Shown here: positions 10,270-30,158 of the stretch, in pieces | Numbering within the stretch: position 1 is the first letter of the stretch | Layout of the letters: the number at the start of each line of letters is the position of its first letter | Source of the DNA: a virus | Reading direction: 5' to 3' (one strand) | IMG/VR virus record: IMGVR_UViG_3300043419_001725 | Span: 1-32,651 of that record | Length of the DNA stretch: 32,651 nt | The notes under the pieces: generated by a model | The model's input: the letters and a program-made list of their open reading frames with translations, nothing else | Told to the model about the DNA's origin: nothing | Databases searched by the model: none | Position numbers and translations under genes: made by a program

Positions 10270-11334
10270 TTATTTATTGACCATACTATTAATCCACTTA
10301 TAGGTTTTTTCAATCCCATTATAAAGTGGTTCACTAACAGACCAACCTACCTTTTCTAAATATAATTTATTGTCAGAGTTTCGTCCTCTAACACCTACAG
10401 GACATTTGAATCCATATTTTTCTTTAAACTCTTCACCGGCAATATTCTTAATGTACATTTCTTTACCTGAAATATCAATCGCCATTTGTGCTAGTTCATT
10501 AATACTAACTTTTTCTTCTGAACCAATGTTAACAGGACCTAAGAAATTATCTTGAGCCATGAATTTAAGTACTGCTTCAACACACTCATCAATATAAAGG
10601 AATGAACGAGTTTGTTGTCCATCACCCCATACTTCCATTTCACCACCATCTAAAGATTCTGCAACTTTTCTACACATTGCGGCCGGTGCCTTTTCTTTAC
10701 CACCTTTCCATGTACCATAAGGTCCAAAGATATTATGGAAACGAGCAACACGAACATCCAAACCGTAGTTACGATTAAATGCTAAGAATAGTCTTTCACT
10801 GAATAATTTTTCCCACCCATATTCCGAATCAGGATTTGCGGGATAAGCTGAACTCTCTTCACAATTAGGGTTATTAGGGTCTAATTGATTGTGTTCCGGA
10901 TACATACAAGCTGAAGATGAGTAGAACACTTTTTTAACACCTGTTTTTACTGCTTCGTGTGCAACATTTAAATTAATCATTGCGGAATTGTGCATAACAT
11001 TTGCATCGTTCTCTCCTGTAAAGATATAACCAGCACCACCCATATCCGCAGCCAATTGGTAAACCTCATCGAAAGCGACTTCTTCACTATATGGTTGTTT
11101 ATGATATGAGAATGGAATTGTTGCCCCATTATGTGTCTCTAATCTCATCACAGATTTAACATTTTGTGGGTCACGTAAATCGTAAACCAAAAATTCATTA
11201 CACATTTCATCAGGTGTAAAGTACTCGTGATTTTTAATGTCAACAACACGTACCCAATTACCTTCTTCTTTTAATCTTTTTGCTAAGTGACCACCAATAA
11301 AACCGCCACCGCCTAATACTAATATTTTTTTCAT
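10270..11334 (-). CDS. GDP-mannose 3,5-epimerase (GME-type SDR)
   Basis: 354 residues. Rossmann start ILVLGGGGFIGGHLAKRL; then LAADMGGAGYI, catalytic C143 in SSSACMYPE, the SDR Y172-x3-K176 pair, GPYGTWKGGKEKAPAAMCRK with the second acid/base lysine (K215), GDGQQTRSFLYIDE, and GVRGRNSDN near the end. These blocks match plant/bacterial GDP-mannose 3,5-epimerase far better than generic UDP-sugar epimerases. The family converts GDP-D-mannose to GDP-L-galactose or GDP-L-gulose. It is the last gene of the minus-strand glycan block, one base from its neighbour, and ends at the bidirectional terminator. All expected catalytic residues appear intact. Confidence 0.88.
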   Translation of the reverse strand: MKKILVLGGGGFIGGHLAKRLKEEGNWVRVVDIKNHEYFTPDEMCNEFLVYDLRDPQNVKSVMRLETHNGATIPFSYHKQPYSEEVAFDEVYQLAADMGGAGYIFTGENDANVMHNSAMINLNVAHEAVKTGVKKVFYSSSACMYPEHNQLDPNNPNCEESSAYPANPDSEYGWEKLFSERLFLAFNRNYGLDVRVARFHNIFGPYGTWKGGKEKAPAAMCRKVAESLDGGEMEVWGDGQQTRSFLYIDECVEAVLKFMAQDNFLGPVNIGSEEKVSINELAQMAIDISGKEMYIKNIAGEEFKEKYGFKCPVGVRGRNSDNKLYLEKVGWSVSEPLYNGIEKTYKWINSMVNK

Positions 11335-11335
11335 T

Positions 11336-11971
11336 TTACCAATTTTTTGATATTTCGTTTATGTTATATTCAACACCTACCTTATAAAATATACTATTAC
11401 AACTCATTCTATCTGAAAACCATGGAGTAATTTCATCTTCATTAAAGTATTTTTTGTTTATCCACCAATCTTCGTAGAAAAATTCAGGACTTTGCCAATG
11501 TGCAACATCCGAACAAAGTAACGTATAACCGTGTCTTTTCAACATTTCTCTTTGTGGTTCTTTTTCATTTCTCACGTACTGTTCACCAAGATATGAATCA
11601 TGTTCAATGGTGATAATTTTAAACTCATAGTCAGTTAATAAAACCTTTTCTAATAGTTTATATCTGTCACCAACTTTCTCCATATCTAAAGACAAATAAT
11701 CGATGGTTTTATTTGAGTAATGTTCAGAAAGAAAAGAATTGAAATCGATATTAAAACAATCTTGTTGTAAAAATGGTGTCTTTCTATTTTTCCATTCCTC
11801 TGAATAATCGATAATATCTACCGAAACTCCATCCCACCCATTTAATTCAAGTAAGTAAGTATTGTTTATTTTTTTAGGTAGATAACAACCTAAATCTAAA
11901 AATTTTTTATCACCACCTTTTAATAGACTGGCAACAAATAAATCTTGTCCACACTGTGAATATGATTCCAT
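11336..11971 (-). CDS. FkbM-like SAM-dependent methyltransferase
   Basis: 211 residues from ATG 11971, which leaves one base from the upstream gene; an earlier in-frame ATG at 12007 lies inside that gene. ESYSQCGQDLFVASLL followed by KKFLDLGCY...NNTYLLELNGWDGVSVDI is the SAM-binding pattern of FkbM-type enzymes (SqxgQD, vDlGay..sNT..LE..gW.G). YLSLDMEKVG matches the motif IV region (iDfLslDvEG), with the Gly position altered. Likely O-methylates a sugar in the glycan made by this cluster. The next gene upstream is a second, more typical FkbM protein. Confidence 0.68.
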   Translation of the reverse strand: MESYSQCGQDLFVASLLKGGDKKFLDLGCYLPKKINNTYLLELNGWDGVSVDIIDYSEEWKNRKTPFLQQDCFNIDFNSFLSEHYSNKTIDYLSLDMEKVGDRYKLLEKVLLTDYEFKIITIEHDSYLGEQYVRNEKEPQREMLKRHGYTLLCSDVAHWQSPEFFYEDWWINKKYFNEDEITPWFSDRMSCNSIFYKVGVEYNINEISKNW

Positions 11972-11972
11972 T

Positions 11973-12566
11973 TTAATAATTTTTAAGTTTCCAATTTTCC
12001 CAAACAAATGGAAATTTCCACGATGGGTAATGTGTTTTAGAAAGGTCCGATGCTAGTTGTTCATATTCTTCCCTTTTATCCACCCAATCAAATAAATGAA
12101 ACTGTACTTGTAAGTTTTTTACTTTACCAATATTACCAGTCTCAATTAAGTTTCTTATGATGTTATATTCAGCACCTTCCACGTTGATTTTCATTAAATC
12201 AATTTCTTCTTCATTAATCAATTCAAAAATTTTACTTGCAGGAATTGATTGAGATTCAAATTTTGGTTCATAATACATTGAAGACTCACCCTCAACAGTA
12301 CCAAAAGTCAAAACCTCTTCTCTGTCTGCAACTGCGGTACAGAATGTATTATATCCCTTTGTTCTTAGTTCGTTACAAAATTCAGGTACCACTTCAAAAC
12401 AATACATTTTTGGTTGGTATCTTTCTCTAATTATTTTAGCCCAATTACCATGTCTGGCACCTAAGTCAACAACTACTGAATTGTTGTTTAAAAGATAATT
12501 GAATCGTAGTGTTCTGTCGGCATCTAATCTGTCGAACTCACTACCGTCTGATGGTTTTATTTTCAT
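11973..12566 (-). CDS. FkbM family methyltransferase
   Basis: 197 residues. SAM motif VVVDLGARHGNWAKI at 31-45; acidic loop motif MYCFEVVPEF; and the FkbM signature DLMKINVEGAEYNIIRNL (~132-149). The family methylates hydroxyl groups of sugars or polyketides. It is in the glycan operon, six bases downstream of the nucleotide-sugar dehydrogenase gene, so it probably decorates a sugar residue of the product. Complete and of normal length. Confidence 0.85.
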   Translation of the reverse strand: MKIKPSDGSEFDRLDADRTLRFNYLLNNNSVVVDLGARHGNWAKIIRERYQPKMYCFEVVPEFCNELRTKGYNTFCTAVADREEVLTFGTVEGESSMYYEPKFESQSIPASKIFELINEEEIDLMKINVEGAEYNIIRNLIETGNIGKVKNLQVQFHLFDWVDKREEYEQLASDLSKTHYPSWKFPFVWENWKLKNY

Positions 12567-12572
12567 TTTACT

Positions 12573-13772
12573 TTATCCCCAAGGATTGATTATTACTTTA
12601 TTTTTACCAATTTCAGGTAAATCTTTCACGTCGTGCGTGATTACTAAAATATCACAATCTTTTAAGAATAAATCAAGTCTATTTGTGTATTCGGATATAA
12701 TTAATTTATCATAAAACACCACATCATAACCTTCACTGAGTAACCTTTCATAAAGAATATTACCGGGTGATTCTGTTGTTACATATGTGTTTGGTTTAAA
12801 CGATAAACCATAGATACCAATCTTCTTCTTGGTATATTTTTTAACCTTATTATAAAGTAATGTGTTTTGATTTTCGTTGATTTCTTGAGTGGCTTTAATG
12901 TGGACCGCATCTAAACCAATATTCTCCGACATTTTAATAAATGCCCAAGTGTCTCTTGGAAAACAGGTACCACCAAAAGATAAACCACTTTTAATATAGT
13001 AAGGTGAAATCCTTTTATCATACCCTAACGCCTTGGTTATATTATGTGGATTTGCATTGAATTTTTCGGAAACGTTACCAATAAAGTTAGCAAAACTAAT
13101 TTTCATTGTAATGTAGGCATTTAAACTAACCTTAGTTATCTCCGCCTCAACCAAAGACATTCTAACAATTGGTGGATTGTTTTTTAATATTTTAGAATAG
13201 ATTTTTTCCGCAACATCTCCGTACTTAGAATCACTTTCACCCATGATAATTACATCGGGATTTTCAAAATCTTTAATTACACAACCTAACGCAACCAAAT
13301 CGGGGATATAAACAACACCAAATCCTTGATTGAGTTTCCTACCCGTACTAGATTCAATCATCTTAACAATTTCATCGTGACTACCCGGCATAACGGTTGA
13401 ACTTATAATAAACAAGAAATCTTCGTTGTTTGAGTTCTTTAGTTTTTCACATATATTATTAACCGCATCGTAGATGTATTTGTTGGAAAATTCACCCTTT
13501 TCATTTGATGGGGTATTAACCAATATAATAGCAACGTCCGTGTTGTTTACAATATTCTCAAAGTTATCTGAGTACTCAATATTTTTACGACCACCTATCA
13601 AATACTCTTTTAGGTTTGTCTCGTGAAAAGGTAGTTCGTTATTTTTAAGAGTATTAATTTTGTTAACGTCGACATCGATACCGATTATTTTTTGACCGTG
13701 TTTTCCAAATGTTGCCAATAACGGTAAACCAAGTTTACCTAAACCAATCAACGATATTTTATTTGTATTCAT
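12573..13772 (-). CDS. UDP-glucose/GDP-mannose dehydrogenase family
   Basis: 399 residues. N-terminal NAD-binding ISLIGLGKLGLPLLATF; NTP in ILVNTPSN; central helix with K214 and N218 (TKVSLNAY); catalytic C270 in GGTCFPRD with D274; C-terminal Rossmann domain KKIGIYGLSFKPNT. This four-electron NAD oxidation turns a UDP- or GDP-sugar into its uronic acid, for example UDP-glucuronate. The IPDLVALGCVI segment has Leu where UDP-glucose dehydrogenases usually have a second Glu, as in a side branch of the family, so the substrate is uncertain. Overlaps the aminotransferase gene by 14 bases. Confidence 0.88.
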   Translation of the reverse strand: MNTNKISLIGLGKLGLPLLATFGKHGQKIIGIDVDVNKINTLKNNELPFHETNLKEYLIGGRKNIEYSDNFENIVNNTDVAIILVNTPSNEKGEFSNKYIYDAVNNICEKLKNSNNEDFLFIISSTVMPGSHDEIVKMIESSTGRKLNQGFGVVYIPDLVALGCVIKDFENPDVIIMGESDSKYGDVAEKIYSKILKNNPPIVRMSLVEAEITKVSLNAYITMKISFANFIGNVSEKFNANPHNITKALGYDKRISPYYIKSGLSFGGTCFPRDTWAFIKMSENIGLDAVHIKATQEINENQNTLLYNKVKKYTKKKIGIYGLSFKPNTYVTTESPGNILYERLLSEGYDVVFYDKLIISEYTNRLDLFLKDCDILVITHDVKDLPEIGKNKVIINPWG

Positions 13773-14817
13773 TTTTATTTAAAATTGTTTTTATTATTGT
13801 TTCCATATCCTCCCATTCACCAATAGTAATCCTAATGGTATTATGTAAACCTGAAAACATACTTCTATCTCTGACCAAAATATTTTTATCCAATAATTCT
13901 TCTATAATTCTTTTACTATCATCGACTCTAATCAAAATAAAGTTTGCATCCGATTTAATAAATTCAATATCGTTATTCTCTAATATTTTTTCAAATCTAT
14001 TTCTATTCTTTATAATAGTATCGACCCTGTCCTCAATGTAAATGATGTTATCTAATGCAACCTCACCTAATTTTTGAGCGAAAGAGTTAACTTCCTTACT
14101 GTTTCTAATTTTATTTATTGAGTTAATCAATTCCTCATTTGCACATATGTAACCAAGTCTAATCGATGCTAAAGAAAACGCTTTGGAAAAAGTTCGAGTT
14201 ACAATCAAATTGCTGTAGGTGTTGACTAATTTTGAACATGATTTTTTTGAAAATTCATAATATGCTTCGTCAACAATGAATAGTTTTTCAGGATGGATAG
14301 TCAATAAACGTTCAATCACTCTAACATCCAAACAGTGACCTGTTGGATTGTTTGGATTACTAATATAAACTACATCATTATGGATTATATCATAAAAATT
14401 ATATTCATGTGGACCAAATGGACTATAGATTGCAGAATGGTTGACATTATCAGAGTAAAGTTTTATGTACGTTTCAATCTGACTATAGTTAGGGTAATAA
14501 ATTAGTACTCTGGTGTCGGTATTTAAAAATGTTGCAAAGATGTAATGTAGTGCGGAATCTGAACCGTTAAAAGTTTGTACATTTTTTGATTCAACACCAC
14601 AATAAAGACTTAATTTATTAATTAAATTTTCGTTATTAATGTTTGGGTATTCACTATAATTGATATTTGATAATGATGATGATAAAATCTCAGTGTATCT
14701 CTCGTCGTATGGTAAATTACATTCATTCCAGTCTAATTTCTTAACATCCCCACCAACAGTTCTCTTAGATGGTTTATATTCATCAATTAACTCTAATCTA
14801 TTGTTTGTTTTTATCAT
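13759..14817 (-). CDS. PLP-dependent aminotransferase (HisC-like)
   Basis: 352 residues from ATG 14817, which overlaps the upstream TGA as ATGA; an earlier ATG at 14838 lies inside that gene. Fold type I motifs are intact: SNPNNPTG (153-160), DEAYYEF with D183, the PLP Schiff-base lysine K212 in TFSKAF, and R220 in IRLGY. It is closest in pattern to histidinol-phosphate aminotransferase and threonine-phosphate decarboxylase. In a glycan cluster it may make an amino-acid- or aminoalcohol-derived decoration rather than histidine, since no other his gene is present. Cytoplasmic. Confidence 0.85.
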   Translation of the reverse strand: MIKTNNRLELIDEYKPSKRTVGGDVKKLDWNECNLPYDERYTEILSSSLSNINYSEYPNINNENLINKLSLYCGVESKNVQTFNGSDSALHYIFATFLNTDTRVLIYYPNYSQIETYIKLYSDNVNHSAIYSPFGPHEYNFYDIIHNDVVYISNPNNPTGHCLDVRVIERLLTIHPEKLFIVDEAYYEFSKKSCSKLVNTYSNLIVTRTFSKAFSLASIRLGYICANEELINSINKIRNSKEVNSFAQKLGEVALDNIIYIEDRVDTIIKNRNRFEKILENNDIEFIKSDANFILIRVDDSKRIIEELLDKNILVRDRSMFSGLHNTIRITIGEWEDMETIIKTILNKNEYK

Positions 14818-16148
14818 TTTAATTCCGTTATTACGCACCTTATTTTACCGGTATTTTGGTCTCTCGGTATTTCATCTACAATTTCAAATTGTAACGGTAA
14901 ATTACCGACTCTTTTAACAATTTCAGCACGAAGTTCATCCAAAACAGAATCGTTAAAATTATCTTTGATTACTATTTTAAAATATAACGATTTATCTGAT
15001 TTTTGGTAGAGTTGGAACATACTAATTTCCTCTCTTTTTGACATAACAGTATAAAAGTTAACAGAAGGTATTCTTGAGTTACTTTCCGAAATGACCATGT
15101 CATCAACCCTACCGTCTATTTTAGAAACAACTAAAGGTCTTGATATATTATATTCAACATTCTCATTTAACGTAACAACATCATTTGTTTTGTAACGAAT
15201 AAATGGCATAACATAATTCATAAATGAAGTACCAATAATTGTATTTGAGTTGTCAAACTCGGTAAATGAATATGTTAAATCATTATGATAGGATTCACTA
15301 TCGTTAGATTGATACATAAAAGAAACTTTTTCCACTTGACCGTAGTGCATTTTTAAATTAAATCCAAACACTTGTTTAATTTTATCACCCCATATGTCTA
15401 AACATTTTTCAGATGCTCCATGTATTGATTTAATATATGGTAACCTTACGTTATGTTTTTCCAATAAACAGGATAACCAAAATGCAGTTGATGGATAGGT
15501 TACTATGGTTGTTGATTTACTTTGATTGATTAAATCGACATAATATAAAATGGTGTCGTCATTTAAATGGAATGGAGAAATATAAATTCGTTTCAACTCA
15601 TAATCTTTCACCACCAAGTCATTCATGTCTTTAGGAGAATGTCTTCTAATCCATATTGTCCATTTATCATAAAGGTCACCACCATGTGATTTGAAACTAT
15701 GTAGAATATATGCGGCTTCTTTTTTGTACATGGAATCTTCACCATAGAACTTTAATCTACTTCCGGTTGACCCCGATGTTTTAAATAAGATTTTATTACC
15801 GTTGTAGTTTTTAGAAATAAAATCACCAAAATTATCGTAAATAATATCTTTGGTTAGTAACGGTAATTTTTTAACGTCATCAAATGATTGTATTTTTGGA
15901 TTGAATCCATACTTCGCGAATAATTTACCATAATACGGTACGTTATCGTTACAATGTTTTAAAATCTGTTTTAATTGGTCGAATTGGTATTCTTTTGACC
16001 TATCATAAGACCAATTGTCTACTTCATTTAAGAAGTCACAGGTATCGGAAAACGTTTTACCATATCTATGTTTGAATGGTACTAAATCATAATAAATTTT
16101 TTTTATGAATTTAGGTTGTTTCTTTATTACTCGATTAATTATTCCCAT
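14814..16148 (-). CDS. PaaK/CapK-like adenylate-forming enzyme
   Basis: 444 residues. The ATP-binding loop TSGSTGS at 124-130 and the later blocks (SIHGASEKC, MHYGQVEK, MPFIRYKTNDVV) follow the phenylacetate-CoA ligase / CapK / F390-synthetase pattern. Such enzymes activate a carboxylate as an acyl-adenylate, and CapK-type members occur in capsule loci with unknown substrates. Overlaps the HAD gene upstream by 14 bases and the aminotransferase downstream by 4. The pairing suggests an acyl or amino-acyl decoration of the glycan (inference). Confidence 0.82.
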   Translation of the reverse strand: MGIINRVIKKQPKFIKKIYYDLVPFKHRYGKTFSDTCDFLNEVDNWSYDRSKEYQFDQLKQILKHCNDNVPYYGKLFAKYGFNPKIQSFDDVKKLPLLTKDIIYDNFGDFISKNYNGNKILFKTSGSTGSRLKFYGEDSMYKKEAAYILHSFKSHGGDLYDKWTIWIRRHSPKDMNDLVVKDYELKRIYISPFHLNDDTILYYVDLINQSKSTTIVTYPSTAFWLSCLLEKHNVRLPYIKSIHGASEKCLDIWGDKIKQVFGFNLKMHYGQVEKVSFMYQSNDSESYHNDLTYSFTEFDNSNTIIGTSFMNYVMPFIRYKTNDVVTLNENVEYNISRPLVVSKIDGRVDDMVISESNSRIPSVNFYTVMSKREEISMFQLYQKSDKSLYFKIVIKDNFNDSVLDELRAEIVKRVGNLPLQFEIVDEIPRDQNTGKIRCVITELK

Positions 16149-16455
16149 TAAAAAAGTCGTTTGAATTTATTGCCTTATCATCTATAAAGAAATCCGCATT
16201 AAATTTAACACCGGCCCTTAATTCGTGAAATTTTAAACCAAAACCTACTAATTGGTGGTACGTCTGTTCGTACCAATTCTTTTTAGAAACACAACCTCGT
16301 GCAGTTTCCACAATGATACGGTTACCTTTATCATATAAGTCATTAACGACTTTAATTCTGTCGGTAAATGGTTCCGCATTAAGGTAATCCCAATTACCAT
16401 CTTCCTTTTTCTTTGTGTCACACAATGTGTTATCTAAATCAAATACGTATATCAT
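16135..16455 (-). CDS. HAD-superfamily phosphatase-like protein (capsule type)
   Basis: 106 residues. Motif I FDLDNTL (D6, D8), motif II-like VETARG, motif III/IV-like FFIDDKA. The short size without a cap matches the small HAD proteins found next to glycosyltransferases in capsule and LPS loci. Likely dephosphorylates a sugar-phosphate or polyol-phosphate. Overlaps the GT2 gene upstream by 4 bases and the PaaK-like gene downstream by 14. A second HAD of related type lies at 25593. Confidence 0.8.
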   Translation of the reverse strand: MIYVFDLDNTLCDTKKKEDGNWDYLNAEPFTDRIKVVNDLYDKGNRIIVETARGCVSKKNWYEQTYHQLVGFGLKFHELRAGVKFNADFFIDDKAINSNDFFNGNN

Positions 16456-17231
16456 TTTAAACTTCTATTTTCTACAATTTTTTTATCAGATATCATATCA
16501 CCATATCTTTCGTAAATCTTTTTAGCATTGGTAAAGTATTGTTGTTGGAAGAACTGTTGATTTTTGTTCCTTGAAGTTCCCCACTCAACTTTTGATACGT
16601 AATCAATCCAATAAAGACCAGAAACTTTATTTAGTTCTTTAACTGCCCGTAAACAAATGTCCAAGTCATCGTATGAACATGGTGCAAACCAATCATCATA
16701 GTAATTTAATTTTTCAAAGTCTCTAAAATCGTACATAATTGGACCTCTGTTCGCATATTCCCTTGCATAGAATATGTCTCTACTTGAGTTGTCTTTACTT
16801 GCAACATCCACATAGTTAATTGCACCTGTTGATTTGTTGTATATGTTATTGTGAGCAACAAAAGAAGTCACCGAAAACACATCATCAAATGACAGGAAAG
16901 GTTGTAACATTCTTTGGTCAAAATTCTTTTCTTTAATGACCATATCGTCTTGAATTGAAACAACGTAATCGTTTTCTACTAACTTCATTCCCGCGTTGTT
17001 TGCTCTTAATTCAAATACGTCGTCGGTGTAAACATAATCTACTTTAACATTTGACCTAAGATAAGGAAGAATATCTTTTACTCTGGCTTCGGTACCGTCA
17101 GTACAACCATCAAATACTACAATTACCTGATTTACATTTTCACTTATGGTGTCTTTAATACCATGACAAACAAAGTCAATAAGATTTTCTTTATTATGTG
17201 TTGTCAATAAAACTGAAACATTTTTACCCAT
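16452..17231 (-). CDS. Family 2 glycosyltransferase
   Basis: 259 residues. GT-A nucleotide-binding start VSVLLTTHNKENLIDFV, VVFDGCTDGT, RANNAGMKL, then the metal-binding acidic motif QDDM at 94-97 (normally the DxD of GT2). The later DDLDICLRAVKEL block matches the typical catalytic-base region. It transfers a sugar from an activated donor to a glycan or lipid acceptor in the cytoplasm. Overlaps both neighbours by 4-8 bases. Confidence 0.87.
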   Translation of the reverse strand: MGKNVSVLLTTHNKENLIDFVCHGIKDTISENVNQVIVVFDGCTDGTEARVKDILPYLRSNVKVDYVYTDDVFELRANNAGMKLVENDYVVSIQDDMVIKEKNFDQRMLQPFLSFDDVFSVTSFVAHNNIYNKSTGAINYVDVASKDNSSRDIFYAREYANRGPIMYDFRDFEKLNYYDDWFAPCSYDDLDICLRAVKELNKVSGLYWIDYVSKVEWGTSRNKNQQFFQQQYFTNAKKIYERYGDMISDKKIVENRSLK

Positions 17232-17916
17232 ATATTCTCGGTTGATTAAAATTATATTTTATAACATAATTTGGAAAATTTAAACTCTTCAAATTATGTT
17301 TGATTGATAGATTGGTTAAGATACTTTGGTCGTGCCTGTGGTCTTTAAAGTTTGGAAGATTAGGTAAACCACATGTGTTAGGGATGTCGGTTAAAATCTT
17401 TTCATCCTCCATAAATTCAAACCATTCTTTGATTAAGTTGATATTGAAATCATTCTTTTTTAATGCCATTATACCCGCTTCTAATTGAACGGAATTGTAG
17501 TAACTATCATTGTCACAATCCATTAAAACAAAACAATCTCTTTTAGTCCATTCCCCATGTTTATAACCTCTATTAATTAATAACAAATCATTGTTATTGA
17601 AGTGGTCTAATACGATATCAAAAAATATTTTTTCGGGGATGTCAGTTGAGTCGATGTAGATTAATATCTCATCATCATTTAATTTCTGTAACTCATTTAG
17701 GATAATAAAAGGTTTCCATATCCAATAACCGTAACCTCTTTTTTGGTCAAACAAGTTTGAAAATTCATCCATAAACTCACTTGGTAAATCATTGTCTGAT
17801 TTTACAATTAGATTATTTACCCCTATTTGTGTTAAATGTTGCAAAAGATTTTTTTGTGATTCTACAAAGTTACCTTTAGCAAATGTTAGAACTTTTATCT
17901 TATCGTATTGATTCAT
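17224..17916 (-). CDS. Putative glycosyltransferase (GT-A-like)
   Basis: 230 residues. KRGYGYWIWKPFIILNEL at 59-76 followed by DEILIYIDSTDIPEK and later DHRHDQSILTNL are the hallmarks of a family of nucleotide-diphospho-sugar transferases found in polysaccharide loci. IDSTD (88-92) is the likely metal/donor site. Exact donor and acceptor unknown. It lies one base after the two-part glycosyltransferase gene. Confidence 0.7.
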   Translation of the reverse strand: MNQYDKIKVLTFAKGNFVESQKNLLQHLTQIGVNNLIVKSDNDLPSEFMDEFSNLFDQKRGYGYWIWKPFIILNELQKLNDDEILIYIDSTDIPEKIFFDIVLDHFNNNDLLLINRGYKHGEWTKRDCFVLMDCDNDSYYNSVQLEAGIMALKKNDFNINLIKEWFEFMEDEKILTDIPNTCGLPNLPNFKDHRHDQSILTNLSIKHNLKSLNFPNYVIKYNFNQPRIYG

Positions 17917-17917
17917 C

Positions 17918-19333
17918 TTATGAAATTAATTTTCTAACACTTTCCTCTAAATTCACTTCGTGACCTTGGGTCTTATGAGAATCTAATTGTAAATGTTTTA
18001 ATAACCCATTGGTTAATGCCATTTTTTTGTTTTTAACAAACGTATAATAAGTAATGGACCTTTCATGTGCATGACCACACGTCTTCGTTTCTTTAATTTC
18101 ATTTGCAACAGGACTAAACCATTTCATGTAATCATTGAAAATGTCGGACCTAAATGTTGTGTTAGAAGTTGAAGACCAAAACGCCTGTGGGTTTTGAGAT
18201 AGAACTCTATTAACGTAAGCCATTAAGTCAAACTTATACATTCTTTTAACAACCGGTAAAATGTGTTCATTCCATTCAGGGTTCATAATAAATTGAAAGT
18301 GACCCATAGGGAACGGAACATAACCGACCATCTGAACCCCATCAGAAAGGATTTTACTTTGGTGTACACTAAAATGTTCATCTAACATAATATCATACTC
18401 AAACAAATTCACATACTTTGTTTTAATCAAATTATGTTTCCAAAGGATATACCAACCGGTATAAGATGTGAATAAAGGATATTGTTCTAAATTGTTTTCA
18501 TAGTCACGTGCAACAATTAAATTATCTAAATGTGATAACTTATCTATAGGACGATTACCTAAGAAAACATATTTGTAAGAATAAAGATTTTTAAATTTAT
18601 TGTTCTCCTCAAAAGTTAAAATTAAATCTTGGTCGTGAACAAAAATAAATGTCTCACACAAATCTCTATCGTTTATATCAATCGGTAAATCTTCAGAGTA
18701 TTGTTCCGAAAATTTCTTTCTATTTTCTTCCCACTTTTCATTTGTTTGACCCACAGATAAGTGAGTTACCCTAACATCGTACATAACACCAATGTCAACG
18801 TTGTCTAAGTAATTTGGTAAACAAAAACTTAAATCATAAAAGTGAAAACCATTAAACGATTCATCAAATTTATGTTTGATTCTATTTTTCTCCACCGCGA
18901 TAAATAATCCATCAACAATCACAGTTTCCTCTAAACGAGAACCACCATCTTTTGAGTATGTTGATGTCCATTTTTTCTCTTCATTCTTATGGTTTACTAT
19001 ACCGTACATTGATGAAGAAACTTCCCACCATGTTCCACTCTTTGGGAGGTATTTGGTACCGGCTAAACCTAAGATACCGTAGGTTGGGTTACGTTTAAAA
19101 TGTTTCATAACCTTGTCACCCCAATTCTTAGTATCGAATTCCAAATCGTCGTGAATAAAAACAACAATATCTGTTTTTGATTCTGATAAAATCTCATTGT
19201 ATACTTCAGGCAATGATTTATCACCCGTGTTAATTTTTTGAATAACATCTACGTCTTTGTACATACAAGTACTCTTGATTAATTCGATGTATTCTGGTTT
19301 GTCTTCTCTTGTTGAAAATCCTACTGTAATCAT
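17918..19333 (-). CDS. Two-domain glycosyltransferase-like protein
   Basis: 471 residues. The N-terminal ~220 form a GT2-like domain: ITVGFSTREDKPEYIELI, PEVYNEILSESKTDIVVFIHDD (HDD at 61-63), ILGLAGTKYLP, and FHFYDLSFCL. This pattern fits PF13712-type GTs. Residues ~225-471 are a second domain with YKYVFLGNRP, LFEYDIMLDE and GHAHERSITYYTF, not recognised and possibly a second transferase. A bifunctional enzyme adding two sugars is possible. It begins 3 bases after the upstream glycosyltransferase. Confidence 0.75.
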   Translation of the reverse strand: MITVGFSTREDKPEYIELIKSTCMYKDVDVIQKINTGDKSLPEVYNEILSESKTDIVVFIHDDLEFDTKNWGDKVMKHFKRNPTYGILGLAGTKYLPKSGTWWEVSSSMYGIVNHKNEEKKWTSTYSKDGGSRLEETVIVDGLFIAVEKNRIKHKFDESFNGFHFYDLSFCLPNYLDNVDIGVMYDVRVTHLSVGQTNEKWEENRKKFSEQYSEDLPIDINDRDLCETFIFVHDQDLILTFEENNKFKNLYSYKYVFLGNRPIDKLSHLDNLIVARDYENNLEQYPLFTSYTGWYILWKHNLIKTKYVNLFEYDIMLDEHFSVHQSKILSDGVQMVGYVPFPMGHFQFIMNPEWNEHILPVVKRMYKFDLMAYVNRVLSQNPQAFWSSTSNTTFRSDIFNDYMKWFSPVANEIKETKTCGHAHERSITYYTFVKNKKMALTNGLLKHLQLDSHKTQGHEVNLEESVRKLIS

Positions 19334-19336
19334 ATA

Positions 19337-20068
19337 TTAGTTGTTTTTGTACATAAAGTCTCTTGCGGTAAAATCGTCAACATCATTAAATAATGTTTTT
19401 TCATCTTCCCATTGTTTAGGTTCTTTTGTTGGACAATGGTCAGACTGTCCTCTGTTACATCTAATTAACCAATCCTCAAAAGATTTATGATGGTAATGGT
19501 TAATTTGTGCAACATCTGTTGGACCCTGAGGGTTCCATGGTCCTTGGAATACCTTTCCATTGGTATCCATCAATGGTGTATTAGGGTTGTGTGGTAGTTG
19601 CATCCATCCACCCGATGATGATTTTAAAATGGTTTTAATTAATTGGTCAACATCTTTACCTCTCTTGGTAAATTGTTTTAACAATGAGTTTTTATTTTCT
19701 TCTTGTCTATCCACTTGACCATTTGAACCAAAGAAATACCAATTAACCGATACTCCAAATTCATTATCGTGTTCAGTTAAAAATTCCTTTAGGTTATTGT
19801 GTTTTTTTAAAACTAAAAATTCATCAATATCCAAAAACGCAATCCAATCATAATCATCTCTAAAGTGTTTTAGGAAATGATTATATGCGTTCATTTGTTG
19901 GTGTAATCCTGGAAATTTAATTTTGTTTAAAAATGGTCTTTCCACCGGACATTTCCAATCATTTTCATACATAATGATTTCATCAAAACCTAATTTGTGG
20001 TTATAATCTAACCATTCTTCTACATAGTTTTCTTCGTCTTTTGCAATGCAAACTAATACTGTTTTCAT
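19337..20068 (-). CDS. Glycosyltransferase (GT92 / Glyco_tranf_2_4-like)
   Basis: 243 residues. VLVCIAKDEENYVEEWLDYN is the standard start of this group, followed by GFDEIIMYEND, the metal site FLDIDEFLVL (D80, D82, E83) and NHYHHKSFEDWLIRCNRG near the end. Members transfer galactose-type sugars in GT92 and various sugars in bacterial loci. Its ATG overlaps the upstream TGA (ATGA), so translation is coupled to the gp23-motif fragment. Confidence 0.83.
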   Translation of the reverse strand: MKTVLVCIAKDEENYVEEWLDYNHKLGFDEIIMYENDWKCPVERPFLNKIKFPGLHQQMNAYNHFLKHFRDDYDWIAFLDIDEFLVLKKHNNLKEFLTEHDNEFGVSVNWYFFGSNGQVDRQEENKNSLLKQFTKRGKDVDQLIKTILKSSSGGWMQLPHNPNTPLMDTNGKVFQGPWNPQGPTDVAQINHYHHKSFEDWLIRCNRGQSDHCPTKEPKQWEDEKTLFNDVDDFTARDFMYKNN

Positions 20069-22646: not shown

Positions 22647-22848
22647 AAAGGAAAAAAAATACATAACCGATTTCTTTATTATTAAGAAGAAACATCATTG
22701 GTTCCTTATTCCCACACCAATTTTTTATTATCGAAAAGACGAATTTTTTGAAACGGGGGTAAGCTCACCGGCTTGGGGGTTTACTATACGTTTTTTAGTC
22801 TTTATGGTAGGATTACAAGTGCAAAAAAACATATATTATAAAAAATGA
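22639..22848 (+). CDS. Small hypothetical protein, aromatic, possibly membrane-associated
   Basis: 69 residues. Lys-rich N-terminus (MDKKEKKYITDFF), then HHWFLIPTPIFYY, a polar centre and one hydrophobic segment (WGFTIRFLVFMVGLQV). Its last four bases form the ATGA overlap with the glutamine synthetase start, so it is translationally coupled to that enzyme. Family not recognised. Confidence 0.6.
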   Translation: MDKKEKKYITDFFIIKKKHHWFLIPTPIFYYRKDEFFETGVSSPAWGFTIRFLVFMVGLQVQKNIYYKK

Positions 22849-23969
22849 AAACAAAAGTAGAATACGTATGGTTGGACGGATATACTCCGGAACCAAGTCT
22901 AAGAAGTAAAGTAAAAATTATGGACCTACCGGTTCCATTTGAATTAAAGGACATCCCAAATTGGGGTTTTGATGGTAGTTCCACCAAACAAGCGGAAGGT
23001 AACTTTTCAGATTGTTATCTTAAACCCGTAAAAATATATCGTACAAACTCCTCAATCAATAAGATTTATGTTTTATGTGAAGTATATGACGGGAATAATG
23101 AAATTCACCCATCAAACTACAGAGCTAAAATTGGTGAAGAGGATGTAGATTTCTGGGTTGGTTATGAACAAGAGTACTTCATTCGTTCAGGACACAACCA
23201 ATCAATTTTAGGATTTGAAAAAGGTGGTATGATTGACCCACAGGGAATTTATTACTGCGGTGTTGGAGGACAGATTGTTGGTAGACATATTTCTGATGAA
23301 CATTTAGATATGTGTTTGGAATATGGAATCAACGTCGAGGGTACGAACGCCGAGGTTGCATTAGGACAATGGGAATATCAAATCTTTGCAAAAGGTAAAA
23401 TTGGGGCATCTGATGATTTATGGATGTCAAGATATTTTCTTCATAAAATTGCCGAGAAACACGGTTTGTCAATTGAGTTACATTGTAAACCAATTACAAC
23501 AGGAGAATGGAATGGTTCCGGATTACACACTAACTTCTCAAATAAAAAAATGAGGGAAGATGGTGGAGAAGAATACTTCAATTCTATTTTTAGAACATTC
23601 GACTCAAGAGCAAAAGAACACATTGACAACTACGGTTCTGATAATCATTTAAGATTAACAGGTAAGTTTGAAACACAATCTATTGATATGTTCTCATGGG
23701 GATTTTCAGATAGAGGGGCATCAATTAGAGTTCCTAAAATTGTAGGTGAGACTTGGAAAGGTTATTTAGAAGATAGAAGACCAGCATCTAACGCCGACCC
23801 ATATAGAATTATTAAAGTGATTTCGGATTCATTGAATTTGGCGAATGAATTAAATTCAACGTTACATGTAATGTATGCTGATATTAAAACAGAAACAATC
23901 ATAAACAAATACGGTACACTTTCAGGTGAAGAGTTATTGGAGGAATACAAAAAAGACGAAGAAGAGTAA
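22845..23969 (+). CDS. Glutamine synthetase, eukaryotic/GSII type
   Basis: 374 residues, the length of GSII (GlnII) rather than GSI. Beta-grasp region with GFDGSSTKQAEG; metal/ATP motif GYEQEYF; EGTNAEVALGQWEYQ; ammonia/ATP site EWNGSGLHTNFS; RLTGKFETQ; DRGASIRVP; and YLEDRRPASNADPY. All catalytic Glu, His and Arg positions appear conserved, so it should make glutamine from glutamate, ammonia and ATP. Bacteroidetes carry GSII genes, so host acquisition is plausible. The ATG overlaps the upstream stop (ATGA) and its own stop overlaps the next ATG (TAATG), so the gene is embedded in a phage operon. Confidence 0.92.
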   Translation: MKTKVEYVWLDGYTPEPSLRSKVKIMDLPVPFELKDIPNWGFDGSSTKQAEGNFSDCYLKPVKIYRTNSSINKIYVLCEVYDGNNEIHPSNYRAKIGEEDVDFWVGYEQEYFIRSGHNQSILGFEKGGMIDPQGIYYCGVGGQIVGRHISDEHLDMCLEYGINVEGTNAEVALGQWEYQIFAKGKIGASDDLWMSRYFLHKIAEKHGLSIELHCKPITTGEWNGSGLHTNFSNKKMREDGGEEYFNSIFRTFDSRAKEHIDNYGSDNHLRLTGKFETQSIDMFSWGFSDRGASIRVPKIVGETWKGYLEDRRPASNADPYRIIKVISDSLNLANELNSTLHVMYADIKTETIINKYGTLSGEELLEEYKKDEEE

Positions 23970-24782: not shown

Positions 24783-25193
24783 ATGGAACTTTTAAACACA
24801 CATCCGATTAAAAAATCGGACTTAGGATTTCACGGAAATTTATTCGGTGGAAAACTTTTAGCTTGGATTGACGCGGCCGCCGCAGGGTATTCAATGCAAT
24901 TGTGTGATTCACCAAGAATGGTAACAGTTTCAATCGACAAATGTTATTTTGAAAAACCAGCTAAAGAAGGTCAACTTCTAAAAATATATGGTTTACCAAA
25001 TAAACTTGGCAACACATCGATTACTCTTTACATGGAGGCGAGAGCTCACAATGTATACACCGGTAATCAAGTTGTAATTTTAAAAACAAATATAAGATTC
25101 GTGAGAATTGACGAGGAAGGAAACCCAATACCGATTGGTGAAAAGGGTAGAAATCGAATCCAAAAATTAATTGACTCACAATCTACAGAATAA
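24783..25193 (+). CDS. Acyl-CoA thioesterase, hotdog fold (YciA-like)
   Basis: 136 residues from ATG 24783; a TTG at 24771 is in frame but less likely. GFHGNLFGGKLLAWIDAAAAG is the hotdog helix signature with the catalytic-region Asp, followed by MVTVSIDKCYFEKPAKEGQLL and AHNVYTG. Family enzymes hydrolyse acyl-CoA thioesters as hexamers of double hotdogs. An acyl-CoA thioesterase is unusual in a phage; it may adjust host lipid or CoA pools, or release acyl groups for a modification. The stop overlaps the next ATG (TAATG). Confidence 0.85.
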   Translation: MELLNTHPIKKSDLGFHGNLFGGKLLAWIDAAAAGYSMQLCDSPRMVTVSIDKCYFEKPAKEGQLLKIYGLPNKLGNTSITLYMEARAHNVYTGNQVVILKTNIRFVRIDEEGNPIPIGEKGRNRIQKLIDSQSTE

Positions 25194-27489: not shown

Positions 27490-28344
27490 ATGAAGAAGTT
27501 TTTAGTGTATGAAATCAAAAACAATATAAACGGTAAATCTTATATCGGACAATATAGTGGATTATTATTTGAGAAATATTTTGGGAGTGGAAAGTTGATT
27601 AAGTTGGCAATAAAAAAATACGGATTAGAAAATTTCTCTAAAACTATTTTAGAAGAGTGTTCTAATAAAGACGAGTTGAATGAAAAAGAAATTTTTTGGA
27701 TTAATAAACTCAAAACAATTGAAAACGGTTATAATTTAACAGAAGGTGGTACTGGTGGAGACCTATCTGAATTTATTAAGTATGATGAGAATTGGGTTGA
27801 AAACCAAAGACACTCAACAAAAAAGTATTGGAACAATATAAGTGATGATGAAAGAAAAATAAGAAGTGAAAATGTGTCTGGTGAGAAAAATGGAATGTAT
27901 GGTAAAGACGGATTTTGGAAGGGTAAAAAAATACCTAAAGAAATAGTTAAAAAGCAATTAGATAATAGAAGAAGTTATAATAAAGAACAGAACCCAAATT
28001 GGAAAGGGGGTTTAACTTACGTCTATTGTGAATGTGGTAAAAGAATAGGTTACGGTTACACTCATTGTAATAAATGTAGACCTAGAACTGAAAATAATAA
28101 TCCATTTTTCGGAAAACAACATTCAGAAGAAACAAAAAAGAGATTGAGTGAAAAAAGAAAAGGTAAAAAACCAACTAATATGACGCAAGTTCAAATTGAT
28201 GATATTGTTTATGAGAGTTTAGCGGAAGCCTCAAGACAAACAGGTATCCCATCACCAACTATTTTATGGAGAATAAAATCTAAAAATAAAAAATACGAAA
28301 ATTACCAATCACACCCAATTATTAAAGCACCATTATCGAACTAA
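27490..28344 (+). CDS. GIY-YIG homing endonuclease with NUMOD domains and a ThyA-like tail
   Basis: 284 residues. GIY-YIG core FLVYEIKNNINGKSYIGQY with YFGSGKLIKLAIKKYG and the catalytic Glu region NEKEIFWINKL; NUMOD3-type repeats (NGMYGKDGFWKGKKIPKE and NPFFGKQHSEETKKRLSEKR); a Cys cluster CECGKRIG...CNKC that may bind zinc; and a NUMOD1/IENR1 helix-turn-helix (VYESLAEASRQTGIPSPTI). Such enzymes nick or cut alleles lacking them to spread themselves. The end, YQSHPIIKAPLSN, is not part of the HTH but matches a ThyA C-terminus. The gene overlaps the next ATG as TAATG. Confidence 0.9.
   Translation: MKKFLVYEIKNNINGKSYIGQYSGLLFEKYFGSGKLIKLAIKKYGLENFSKTILEECSNKDELNEKEIFWINKLKTIENGYNLTEGGTGGDLSEFIKYDENWVENQRHSTKKYWNNISDDERKIRSENVSGEKNGMYGKDGFWKGKKIPKEIVKKQLDNRRSYNKEQNPNWKGGLTYVYCECGKRIGYGYTHCNKCRPRTENNNPFFGKQHSEETKKRLSEKRKGKKPTNMTQVQIDDIVYESLAEASRQTGIPSPTILWRIKSKNKKYENYQSHPIIKAPLSN
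28303..28344 (+). repeat. Second copy of a ThyA C-terminal tail at the 3' end of the endonuclease
   Basis: Encodes YQSHPIIKAPLSN-stop. The thyA gene at 27392-27433 ends YKSHSPIKMPLSN-stop, a similar length and pattern, and the canonical ThyA tail is GYxPHPxIKAPxxx. The two copies are diverged at the DNA level. This copy is the closer of the two to the canonical ThyA sequence. Confidence 0.65.
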
Positions 28345-28498: not shown

Positions 28499-28723
28499 AT
28501 GAGTCCATTCAAATCAATATTATTATTTATGTTAGGAATAATTTTTTACCCACTAATCGCTATTTTAATTTTCTTAGAAAATGTTGGCGTTATAGATAAA
28601 CTAAGAGAAGTTAATTGGACAAATCTTATAACTTATGTTGCAATTGGGTTTGTTGCATTTTTGTGGGTTCGATATTTTGTACTTCCACTTTTTTATTATT
28701 TTTCGGGAGATATTGTTGATTAG
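28499..28723 (+). CDS. Small membrane protein (two TM segments)
   Basis: 74 residues. Hydrophobic segments at about 6-27 (ILLFMLGIIFYPLIAILIF) and 43-68 (ITYVAIGFVAFLWVRYFVLPLF) with a charged loop (DKLREVNWTN). Probably inner membrane. Two bases after the previous gene; about 50 bases of AT-rich spacer then precede the lipoprotein. Confidence 0.65.
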   Translation: MSPFKSILLFMLGIIFYPLIAILIFLENVGVIDKLREVNWTNLITYVAIGFVAFLWVRYFVLPLFYYFSGDIVD

Positions 28724-28772: not shown

Positions 28773-30158
28773 ATGAAAATAGCAAAAATTTTAATTTTAT
28801 GTTTGGGTTTATTCGCGGTTTTTTATTCGTGTACCAAAACAGAAGAAACGATTACTCCCGTTTCGTTCCCTAAAAATTTATCCATTAAAGGATTTAACTT
28901 TCCTGAGGACTCCTCAACTATTTACGGTTGGTTAAAAGACCAAGATACCACAAAGATTGTGAGTCACGCTTGGGGCATTTGGGCCGGACTTACCGAACCA
29001 ACCAATCAAAAATACAATGGACAAGATTTACTTGTATTTGAAACGTGGATGGGTGTCCAAGAATTGGCGGCAATGTCTGCACAAGGTAGAATTGCCGAAG
29101 AGGGTGAATCTAGACATGAAAGAACCTCATTGAGTGTCCCAAAACAATTTTTACACGGTCGTTTATTAACTAACGGACCAAAACCAATCGATACAAACTT
29201 TGTAGTATTAGAAACAGTTTCTTATGACCCATCAGGTGCATACTTTGTGACGATGAATCAATTGTTTAATAAAAGTAAATTGGAATCGTACAGTGTTAAA
29301 GACGGTATCGGTAAAATTCCTGAGTTTCCTAATACCGCAATTACAACTAAACCTACATATTATGCGGGTGTACCAAGTAAAGATGGTTTAATTAGGGTAC
29401 CTGTATGGGAAGAACCAAATCCAGCCAAAGCATACAAATACACAAGTTGGCAAAAATTTGTTTATGCTGATGTTAATAACAAACAAAAACCAAATAAACA
29501 TTTGGTACCTGTTACATCATCAAAACCAACACAATCAGAAATCGAGGCTGCAACCTGTAATGTAAGTGACTTCATCAACTACAAGATTGATAGAGTTGGT
29601 GCGGATTATCTAAACAATCACCAAGACGTTGGAACAACTCCAAGTAGACAATTCGTTGAAGGTGATTATGTGTTGTTAGTTGCAATGCATGTAACAACTA
29701 AAGAGTTTAAGAATTGGACATGGCAAACTTACTTCTGGTGTCCTGACCCGTCTAATCCACCATCACCAAGTTCAAAATTTGAAGCGAGTTTACAACCTAA
29801 AGAATTAAAAGGTGCGGCATCACATTATGCTGTTAGTGCTGCATATGCAATGGTTTGGCCCAACCAACCAGAAACGGGTGGTACCGATAAAAACTGTCGA
29901 CCAATTATTGCTTACAATCCATATTTGGAAGGTGGTTTCGGTCCTAAAGTATTTAGTTTACCAAACACATTCCGACCTGATTTTGTATATGGTATGCAAA
30001 CCAATTGTATGTCTTGTCACGCATTATCTACCTTTAGTGGTAAAAACGGTTACAGTACCAATCAATATATTGATATGAGAGACACAGGGTTATTTAAAAA
30101 TGATGTTAAGTTAGATTTTACTTGGTCTATTCAGGGTAACATAAACCAAGATAAATAA
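28773..30158 (+). CDS. Lipoprotein with a single c-type heme motif (CxxCH)
   Basis: 461 residues. The N-terminus has a Lys-start, a hydrophobic core (ILILCLGLFAVF) and a lipobox-like FYSC with lipidated Cys20. TKTEE follows, an acidic pair near +5 like the Bacteroidetes lipoprotein export signal, so an outer-membrane surface location is plausible. The long central part (WGIWAGLTEPTNQKYNG, ETWMGVQELAAM, and an FWCPDP region) is unassigned. C412-MS-C415-H416 in QTNCMSCHALSTF is a standard covalent heme c site. It resembles bacterial mono-heme lipoproteins rather than virion proteins. No cytochrome-maturation gene is present here, so heme attachment would use the host. A cytochrome-like gene is unexpected in a phage. 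Confidence 0.7.
   Translation: MKIAKILILCLGLFAVFYSCTKTEETITPVSFPKNLSIKGFNFPEDSSTIYGWLKDQDTTKIVSHAWGIWAGLTEPTNQKYNGQDLLVFETWMGVQELAAMSAQGRIAEEGESRHERTSLSVPKQFLHGRLLTNGPKPIDTNFVVLETVSYDPSGAYFVTMNQLFNKSKLESYSVKDGIGKIPEFPNTAITTKPTYYAGVPSKDGLIRVPVWEEPNPAKAYKYTSWQKFVYADVNNKQKPNKHLVPVTSSKPTQSEIEAATCNVSDFINYKIDRVGADYLNNHQDVGTTPSRQFVEGDYVLLVAMHVTTKEFKNWTWQTYFWCPDPSNPPSPSSKFEASLQPKELKGAASHYAVSAAYAMVWPNQPETGGTDKNCRPIIAYNPYLEGGFGPKVFSLPNTFRPDFVYGMQTNCMSCHALSTFSGKNGYSTNQYIDMRDTGLFKNDVKLDFTWSIQGNINQDK

Follow-up and report, generated by a model that had tools for sequence, protein, structure and literature searches.

The protein encoded at positions 28773–30158 of the window (the whole stretch of DNA analysed, a 32.6-kb fragment in an IMG/VR virus record), here designated P0001, is best explained as the product of a host-type auxiliary gene, an exported mono-heme enzyme resembling the cytochromes P460; we assign to this reading as a whole a probability of about one half. 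The gene occurs in large, uncultured phages of fresh water that belong to several lineages, and comparison of sequences suggests that its product is probably a distant relative of the cytochromes P460, working in their manner and standing outside the Pfam family PF16694.

Gene, export signal and heme motif

The open reading frame starts with ATG and runs uninterrupted to its stop codon, and the features that define its product are the following:

28773–30158, plus strand: coding sequence of a putative exported mono-heme c lipoprotein of 461 residues (P0001), with relatives in 22 other virus contigs and in cellular genomes and a dN/dS of about 0.07
28773–28832, plus strand: predicted signal peptide with lipobox FYSC and lipidation cysteine C20
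30006–30020, plus strand: CxxCH motif for heme c attachment, C412/C415/H416

The single CxxCH of P0001 (C412-M-S-C415-H416) has a probability of 0.002 in shuffled sequences of the same composition, and it is not a chance occurrence, since it is found in all 32 aligned family members from phages, Bacteroidota and Proteobacteria. It is located near the C-terminus (residues 412–416 of 461) and would supply the proximal histidine, as in P460 and c'-beta proteins. The Ser-Cys of the lipobox is kept in eight of nine distinct phage sequences, the exception being L073, which has no cysteine at this position, and in most Bacteroidota homologues. Altogether, these features suggest that P0001 is an exported, usually lipid-anchored mono-heme protein, and the open frame, lipobox cysteine and single c-type heme site proposed in a sequence-only reading are thus borne out, the latter as a conserved motif.

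In respect to selection, dN/dS against the phage relatives is ~0.07–0.11 (dN 0.075 and dS 1.09 against L002), and P0001 is therefore kept under strong purifying selection. About 25 positions are fully invariant in the family alignment, many of them His, Lys, Glu, Asn or Trp outside the heme motif; among the invariant residues are H65, W67, W92, K193, W212, H306, E311, W315, N382, P383 and E386, as well as N411, C412, C415, H416, D448, F449 and W451.

We have also considered the acidic pair E24-E25, at +4/+5 from C20, as a surface signal of the Bacteroidota LES type, and rejected it because it is not kept among close phage homologues: only the window and L002 have it (TEE/TED), the residues after the cysteine being SDTSK, IKNKK, QRNNT or AKVEK in the others. 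Of the surface lipoprotein initially envisaged, predicted export and usual lipidation stand, whereas the acidic surface signal does not. This bears on the proposal that the protein blocks superinfection by masking a surface receptor, with the heme motif secondary. Phage T5 has such a lipoprotein (abstract of PMC9586334), and most phage copies retain the lipobox; however, the lipobox is lost in L073, conservation is strongest in the heme core and not in the export signal, and the heme site and catalytic-looking residues are invariant in homologues from cells without any phage context, which renders receptor masking improbable.

Phage genomes carrying the gene

The search of other phage genomes for the same family identified 22 further IMG/VR contigs carrying the gene, which fall into about eight sequence types with 52–88% identity. 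An identical 17-kb stretch is common to twelve of these contigs, among them L003, the rest representing several lineages. A T4-type portal (Portal_T4) was found in four of the 11 records searched, G001, G002, G003 and G960, and not in the other seven, several of which are short fragments; the records with a portal measure, in order of size, 154, 187, 288 and 348 kb. The carriers are probably large T4-like phages infecting Bacteroidota.

The closest named relatives of P0001 are bacterial, as would be expected if the contig were host DNA or had been mis-binned, an outcome that had been set as a refutation of the initial proposal. Against this, about 20 genes, from a methylase through the downstream neighbours of the heme gene, are syntenic between the window and the 288-kb record with its T4-type portal, and the gene occurs in several distinct phage contexts; contamination has been rejected on these grounds, and we attribute to it a negligible probability.

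A tblastn search of 50,697 GenBank phage records with P0001 and a homologue from Flavobacterium as queries gave no match. The claim that no phage system of this type had been described thus stands for GenBank phages, but the protein belongs to a cellular family found in Flavobacterium, other Bacteroidota and Proteobacteria. Among phage protein families, P0001 matches PHROG 19967 (function unknown) over its full length (residues 33–454, E 2.1e-25), and this match recurs in other phage records. Two sets of hits were set aside: a 72-residue hit in L101, with no convincing open reading frame, and the IMG/VR loci L097–L100, left out of the phage count, of which the two inspected have an integrase gene nearby and show ~93% matches to Sinorhizobium plasmid proteins.

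Cellular relatives and origin

The closest cellular relatives in the genome collection are from Flavobacterium (43–59% identity), and the gene is for this reason considered of host type; it is a host-type gene within a genuine phage genome, as defines an auxiliary metabolic gene. Remoter relatives, at 25–35%, are found in Chromobacterium, Cellvibrio, Iodobacter, Alcanivoracaceae and Rhodocyclaceae. In cells the gene is rare, being present in five of 299 genomes in the Flavobacterium family sample, eight of 395 in the phylum of Flavobacterium and three of 274 in the class to which the Chromobacterium genome belongs. The tree joins nine phage and five Bacteroidota sequences (support 99/95), with one or two phage groups, and the joint clade of the phages and their nearest cellular relatives from Flavobacterium has a support of 97/96. 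Bacteroidota copies have a lipobox, which the signal peptide of most proteobacterial copies lacks.

In F. suaedae the heme protein is fused in frame to a flavin amine oxidase, and a similar long open frame is present in a second genome of the same phylum. The two proteins occupy one uninterrupted frame at L021 2550–6320 and L066 49–2913, of 1256 codons in L021 and ~1274 in the genome of L066, with the lipobox in mid-frame and Tail Collar genes downstream. A remote relative in Sinorhizobium meliloti (L102 5899–7128) has Nif11-type RiPP precursors and radical SAM maturases as neighbours.

Neighbouring genes

The heme gene is part of a same-strand run of phage-type genes, in agreement with the phage operon initially proposed, and its immediate neighbours are:

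28499–28723, plus strand: small membrane-protein-like open reading frame of 74 residues, upstream, conserved in L040
30167–30724, plus strand: protein of the 2H-phosphoesterase type (2'-5' RNA ligase superfamily), downstream after an 8-base gap that does not imply a functional link to the heme gene

No family match was obtained for the upstream frame. The downstream product has matches to 2'-5' RNA ligase and to the anti-CBASS protein Acb1, both weak and below the cut-off, and on this basis it is possibly a counter-defence gene placed directly 3' of the heme gene. Around the heme gene, the window encodes a thymidylate synthase, a GIY-YIG homing endonuclease, DNA methylases and the RNA-ligase-type protein. 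The GIY-YIG gene (27490–28344), located between the thymidylate synthase and the heme gene, is missing at the corresponding place in L036 and L031, the latter having an unrelated membrane-protein-like gene, and this spot is therefore variable. The region 5' of the heme gene was searched for a conserved promoter and gave AT-rich sequence only, with nothing clearly in common.

Further away in the window are a glutamine synthetase (22845–23969; PF00120, E 3e-16, and PF03951) conserved in L031, L036 and L040, a 4HBT thioesterase of hot-dog fold in a run of phage auxiliary genes (24783–25193), and, on the minus strand (10270–20068), a glycan cluster with a nucleotide-sugar epimerase, a UDP-glucose dehydrogenase and several glycosyltransferases. 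In other carriers, a gene of the PEP synthase/pyruvate phosphate dikinase type precedes the heme gene within the phage stretch of L040 (6359–8767), and the 32-kb virus contig L047 has, besides the heme gene, a GroEL-like chaperonin gene as judged by eye (11322–12953).

Two phages and three Flavobacterium-type loci have a Tail Collar gene close to the heme gene. In the two phages, L043 and L050, it encodes an 85-residue protein directly 3' of the heme gene (11356–11613 in both), whose collar domain is 48–60% identical to those near the Flavobacterium-type copies. An endolysin-like peptidoglycan-binding gene also lies a short way upstream of the heme gene in both phages, and this order, along with the collar genes of the three Flavobacterium-type loci, could indicate that the heme protein belongs to a lysis or tail-adhesion module. 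However, the order is absent in the lineage of the window and in L044 and L073, no collar match was found in records G000, G001, G004, G008 and G960, and virions assemble in the cytoplasm, which closes them to a protein that is exported by Sec and matured in the periplasm; we consider a role in such a module improbable as well.

Likeness to cytochromes P460

Searches of the whole P0001 sequence against Pfam, NCBIfam and PDB sequences returned nothing useful, and a full-length hhalign of the family against P460 aligned the CxxCH alone. We have carried out a comparison by blocks, in which two family segments were joined to the CxxCH tail and then aligned to a P460 profile derived from the loci that PF16694 had retrieved. 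A hand-picked three-block alignment gave a probability of 92% and E 7e-7, a value that refers to excised pieces and is not to be taken literally. In order to remove the hand choice of blocks, a grid scan of 2,275 segment pairs was performed, resulting in a maximum of 45.5 against a mean of 29.3 (sd 1.4), where the pieces are again excised and the ranking constitutes the evidence. The top five pairs all combine the K193 strand (start 180–185) with the M305-H306 hairpin (start 285–295), and the corresponding blocks are:

29325–29384, plus strand: P460-like block A, residues 185–204, the grid-scan maximum, with K193 (bases 29349–29351) invariant in 32 of 32 sequences
29640–29726, plus strand: P460-like block B, residues 290–318, from the alignment and the grid scan, with M305-H306, E311 and W315 invariant and W317 nearly so

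The K193 strand, the M305-H306/WxW hairpin and the C-terminal CxxCH are collinear with P460, with a block-to-block spacing far larger in the family than in P460. When the CxxCH is removed, hhalign still aligns the columns of the K193 strand, with a score of 17.6 compared to a mean of 11.6 and a maximum of 17.4 in 60 column shuffles. Family residues 185–193 read mostly F-P-x-x-x-I/V-x-x-K, the P460 counterpart being WPDGAILVK, and K193 aligns to the heme-crosslinking lysine of P460. The aligned lysine of McP460 has an aspartate at +24, the same distance that separates Lys78 from Asp102 in PMC11928373. The position of the P460 distal carboxylate corresponds to V303 and is hydrophobic across the family, so that the carboxylate looked for as a mark of NH2OH oxidation is absent and classical hydroxylamine oxidation is unlikely.

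P0001 thus shares with the cytochromes P460 (PF16694; McP460, NeP460 and NsP460) a C-terminal CxxCH, a beta-rich core, here predicted, a collinear lysine strand, a GD[FY]xxxxxM hairpin and an invariant lysine at the crosslink position. It differs from them in being ~3 times longer, in the lipid anchor of Bacteroidota and most phage copies, in lacking the distal carboxylate, and in remaining under the PF16694 threshold (one family member reaches E 2.1) and without a Foldseek match. The cytochromes c'-beta, gas-binding heme c proteins of the P460 superfamily, also lack the distal carboxylate, but have Phe or Met in place of the lysine that is invariant in the P0001 family.

A second family of exported heme proteins, characterized by the motif SWQxFVALNWP and occurring in Proteobacteria and Bacteroidota, is homologous to the P0001 family (hhalign 97%, E 2e-11); we have found no library name for it. 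It contains the same Lys, [M/L]H and CxxCH blocks, the latter in most of its members, whereas its N-terminal and C-terminal parts are different. The block match to P460 was repeated more weakly, with 36.7 against a random mean of 32.5 (sd 0.5) and a best random value of 35.4. Genes of this family adjoin a P0001-type gene in some Bacteroidota and a tyrosinase in Paracoccus denitrificans PD1222, where tyrosinase, a hypothetical gene and the heme protein stand in a row (L141 2353–7368). With one query, no relative was found in viral contigs.

The structure prediction proposed as a check for a heme pocket gave an AlphaFold model (21 sequences) with many strands, pLDDT 79.7 and pTM 0.84, in which the heme end has lower confidence and the heme itself is not included. 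Foldseek comparison of AlphaFold models with the PDB (two models) and a viral library yielded no significant match: P460 chains appeared only at E ~4–5 with the first model and were missing from the top 50 with the second, so that the beta-fold of P460/c'-beta proteins was not recovered, a result that is not a strong test given the weakness of the model in the heme region. The lower confidence around the motif and the missing fold match would be compatible with a CxxCH that is free of heme, forming a metal site or a disulfide, and with a convergent resemblance to P460. Yet the two cysteines and the histidine are invariant in 32 of 32 sequences, most members of the second family have the motif, and three blocks match P460; we consider a heme-free site quite improbable, slightly more so than receptor masking.

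Proposed function

On the reading as a P460-like enzyme, P0001 would be exported by Sec and lipidated at C20, and the cytochrome c maturation system of the host would covalently attach one heme through C412 and C415, H416 serving as its proximal ligand. The heme would be housed in an enlarged core of the P460/c'-beta kind, with K193 at the position of the lysine that is crosslinked to the porphyrin in P460 proteins, and with the M305-H306 strand lining the pocket. During infection, the protein may sustain a detoxifying or oxidising activity of the host envelope, or supply one in addition. The lysine-heme crosslink, the enzyme activity and the benefit to the phage are what we infer from this comparison, and NO, hydroxylamine-like compounds, peroxide and amines or phenols are candidate substrates.

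A simpler proposal is that of a plain cytochrome c lipoprotein that carries electrons or buffers redox state in the host envelope, with no chemistry of its own. One CxxCH and a lipid anchor would suffice for this, and the fused flavin amine oxidase could pass electrons on; however, 461 residues and ~25 invariant positions exceed the needs of a carrier, and no significant Pfam match to electron-transfer cytochromes was obtained. So dense an array of invariant His, Lys, Glu, Asn and Trp residues favours a small-molecule heme enzyme over a simple electron carrier, which we regard as unlikely, if the foremost of the alternatives. Together with the signal peptide and anchor, the heme motif, the amine oxidase frame and the RiPP maturases and tyrosinases beside remoter members, these residues point to a putative extracytoplasmic oxidation of small molecules. 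Since P0001 belongs to a cellular family, it is more likely to act as the host protein does than as a new phage device.

The P460/c'-beta superfamily has been described so far from Proteobacteria (PMC11928373), and a full-text literature search for P460 proteins in phages or among viral auxiliary genes evidenced no phage P460 protein in titles and the opening parts of abstracts. Viral alaS (PMC11480375) and viral norB and nirK (PMC8115048) are likewise host tetrapyrrole or redox genes carried by aquatic phages, but in the partial texts of these sources none encodes an exported mono-heme lipoprotein. It is a tentative possibility that the virus heme enzyme, with a lysine-porphyrin crosslink, represents an unrecognised branch of P460, enlarged three-fold, present in Proteobacteria, Bacteroidota and large phages and used in the host envelope against NO, hydroxylamine or peroxide or for oxidation.

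If the proposed reading is correct, phage auxiliary genes would extend to an exported enzyme loaded with heme after translation, and the phage would therefore be obliged to use the cytochrome c maturation route of its host. The P460/c'-beta superfamily would be widened to Bacteroidota and viruses, and K193, H306 and H416 would be testable residues for a family of exported heme proteins that has no name in the libraries used.
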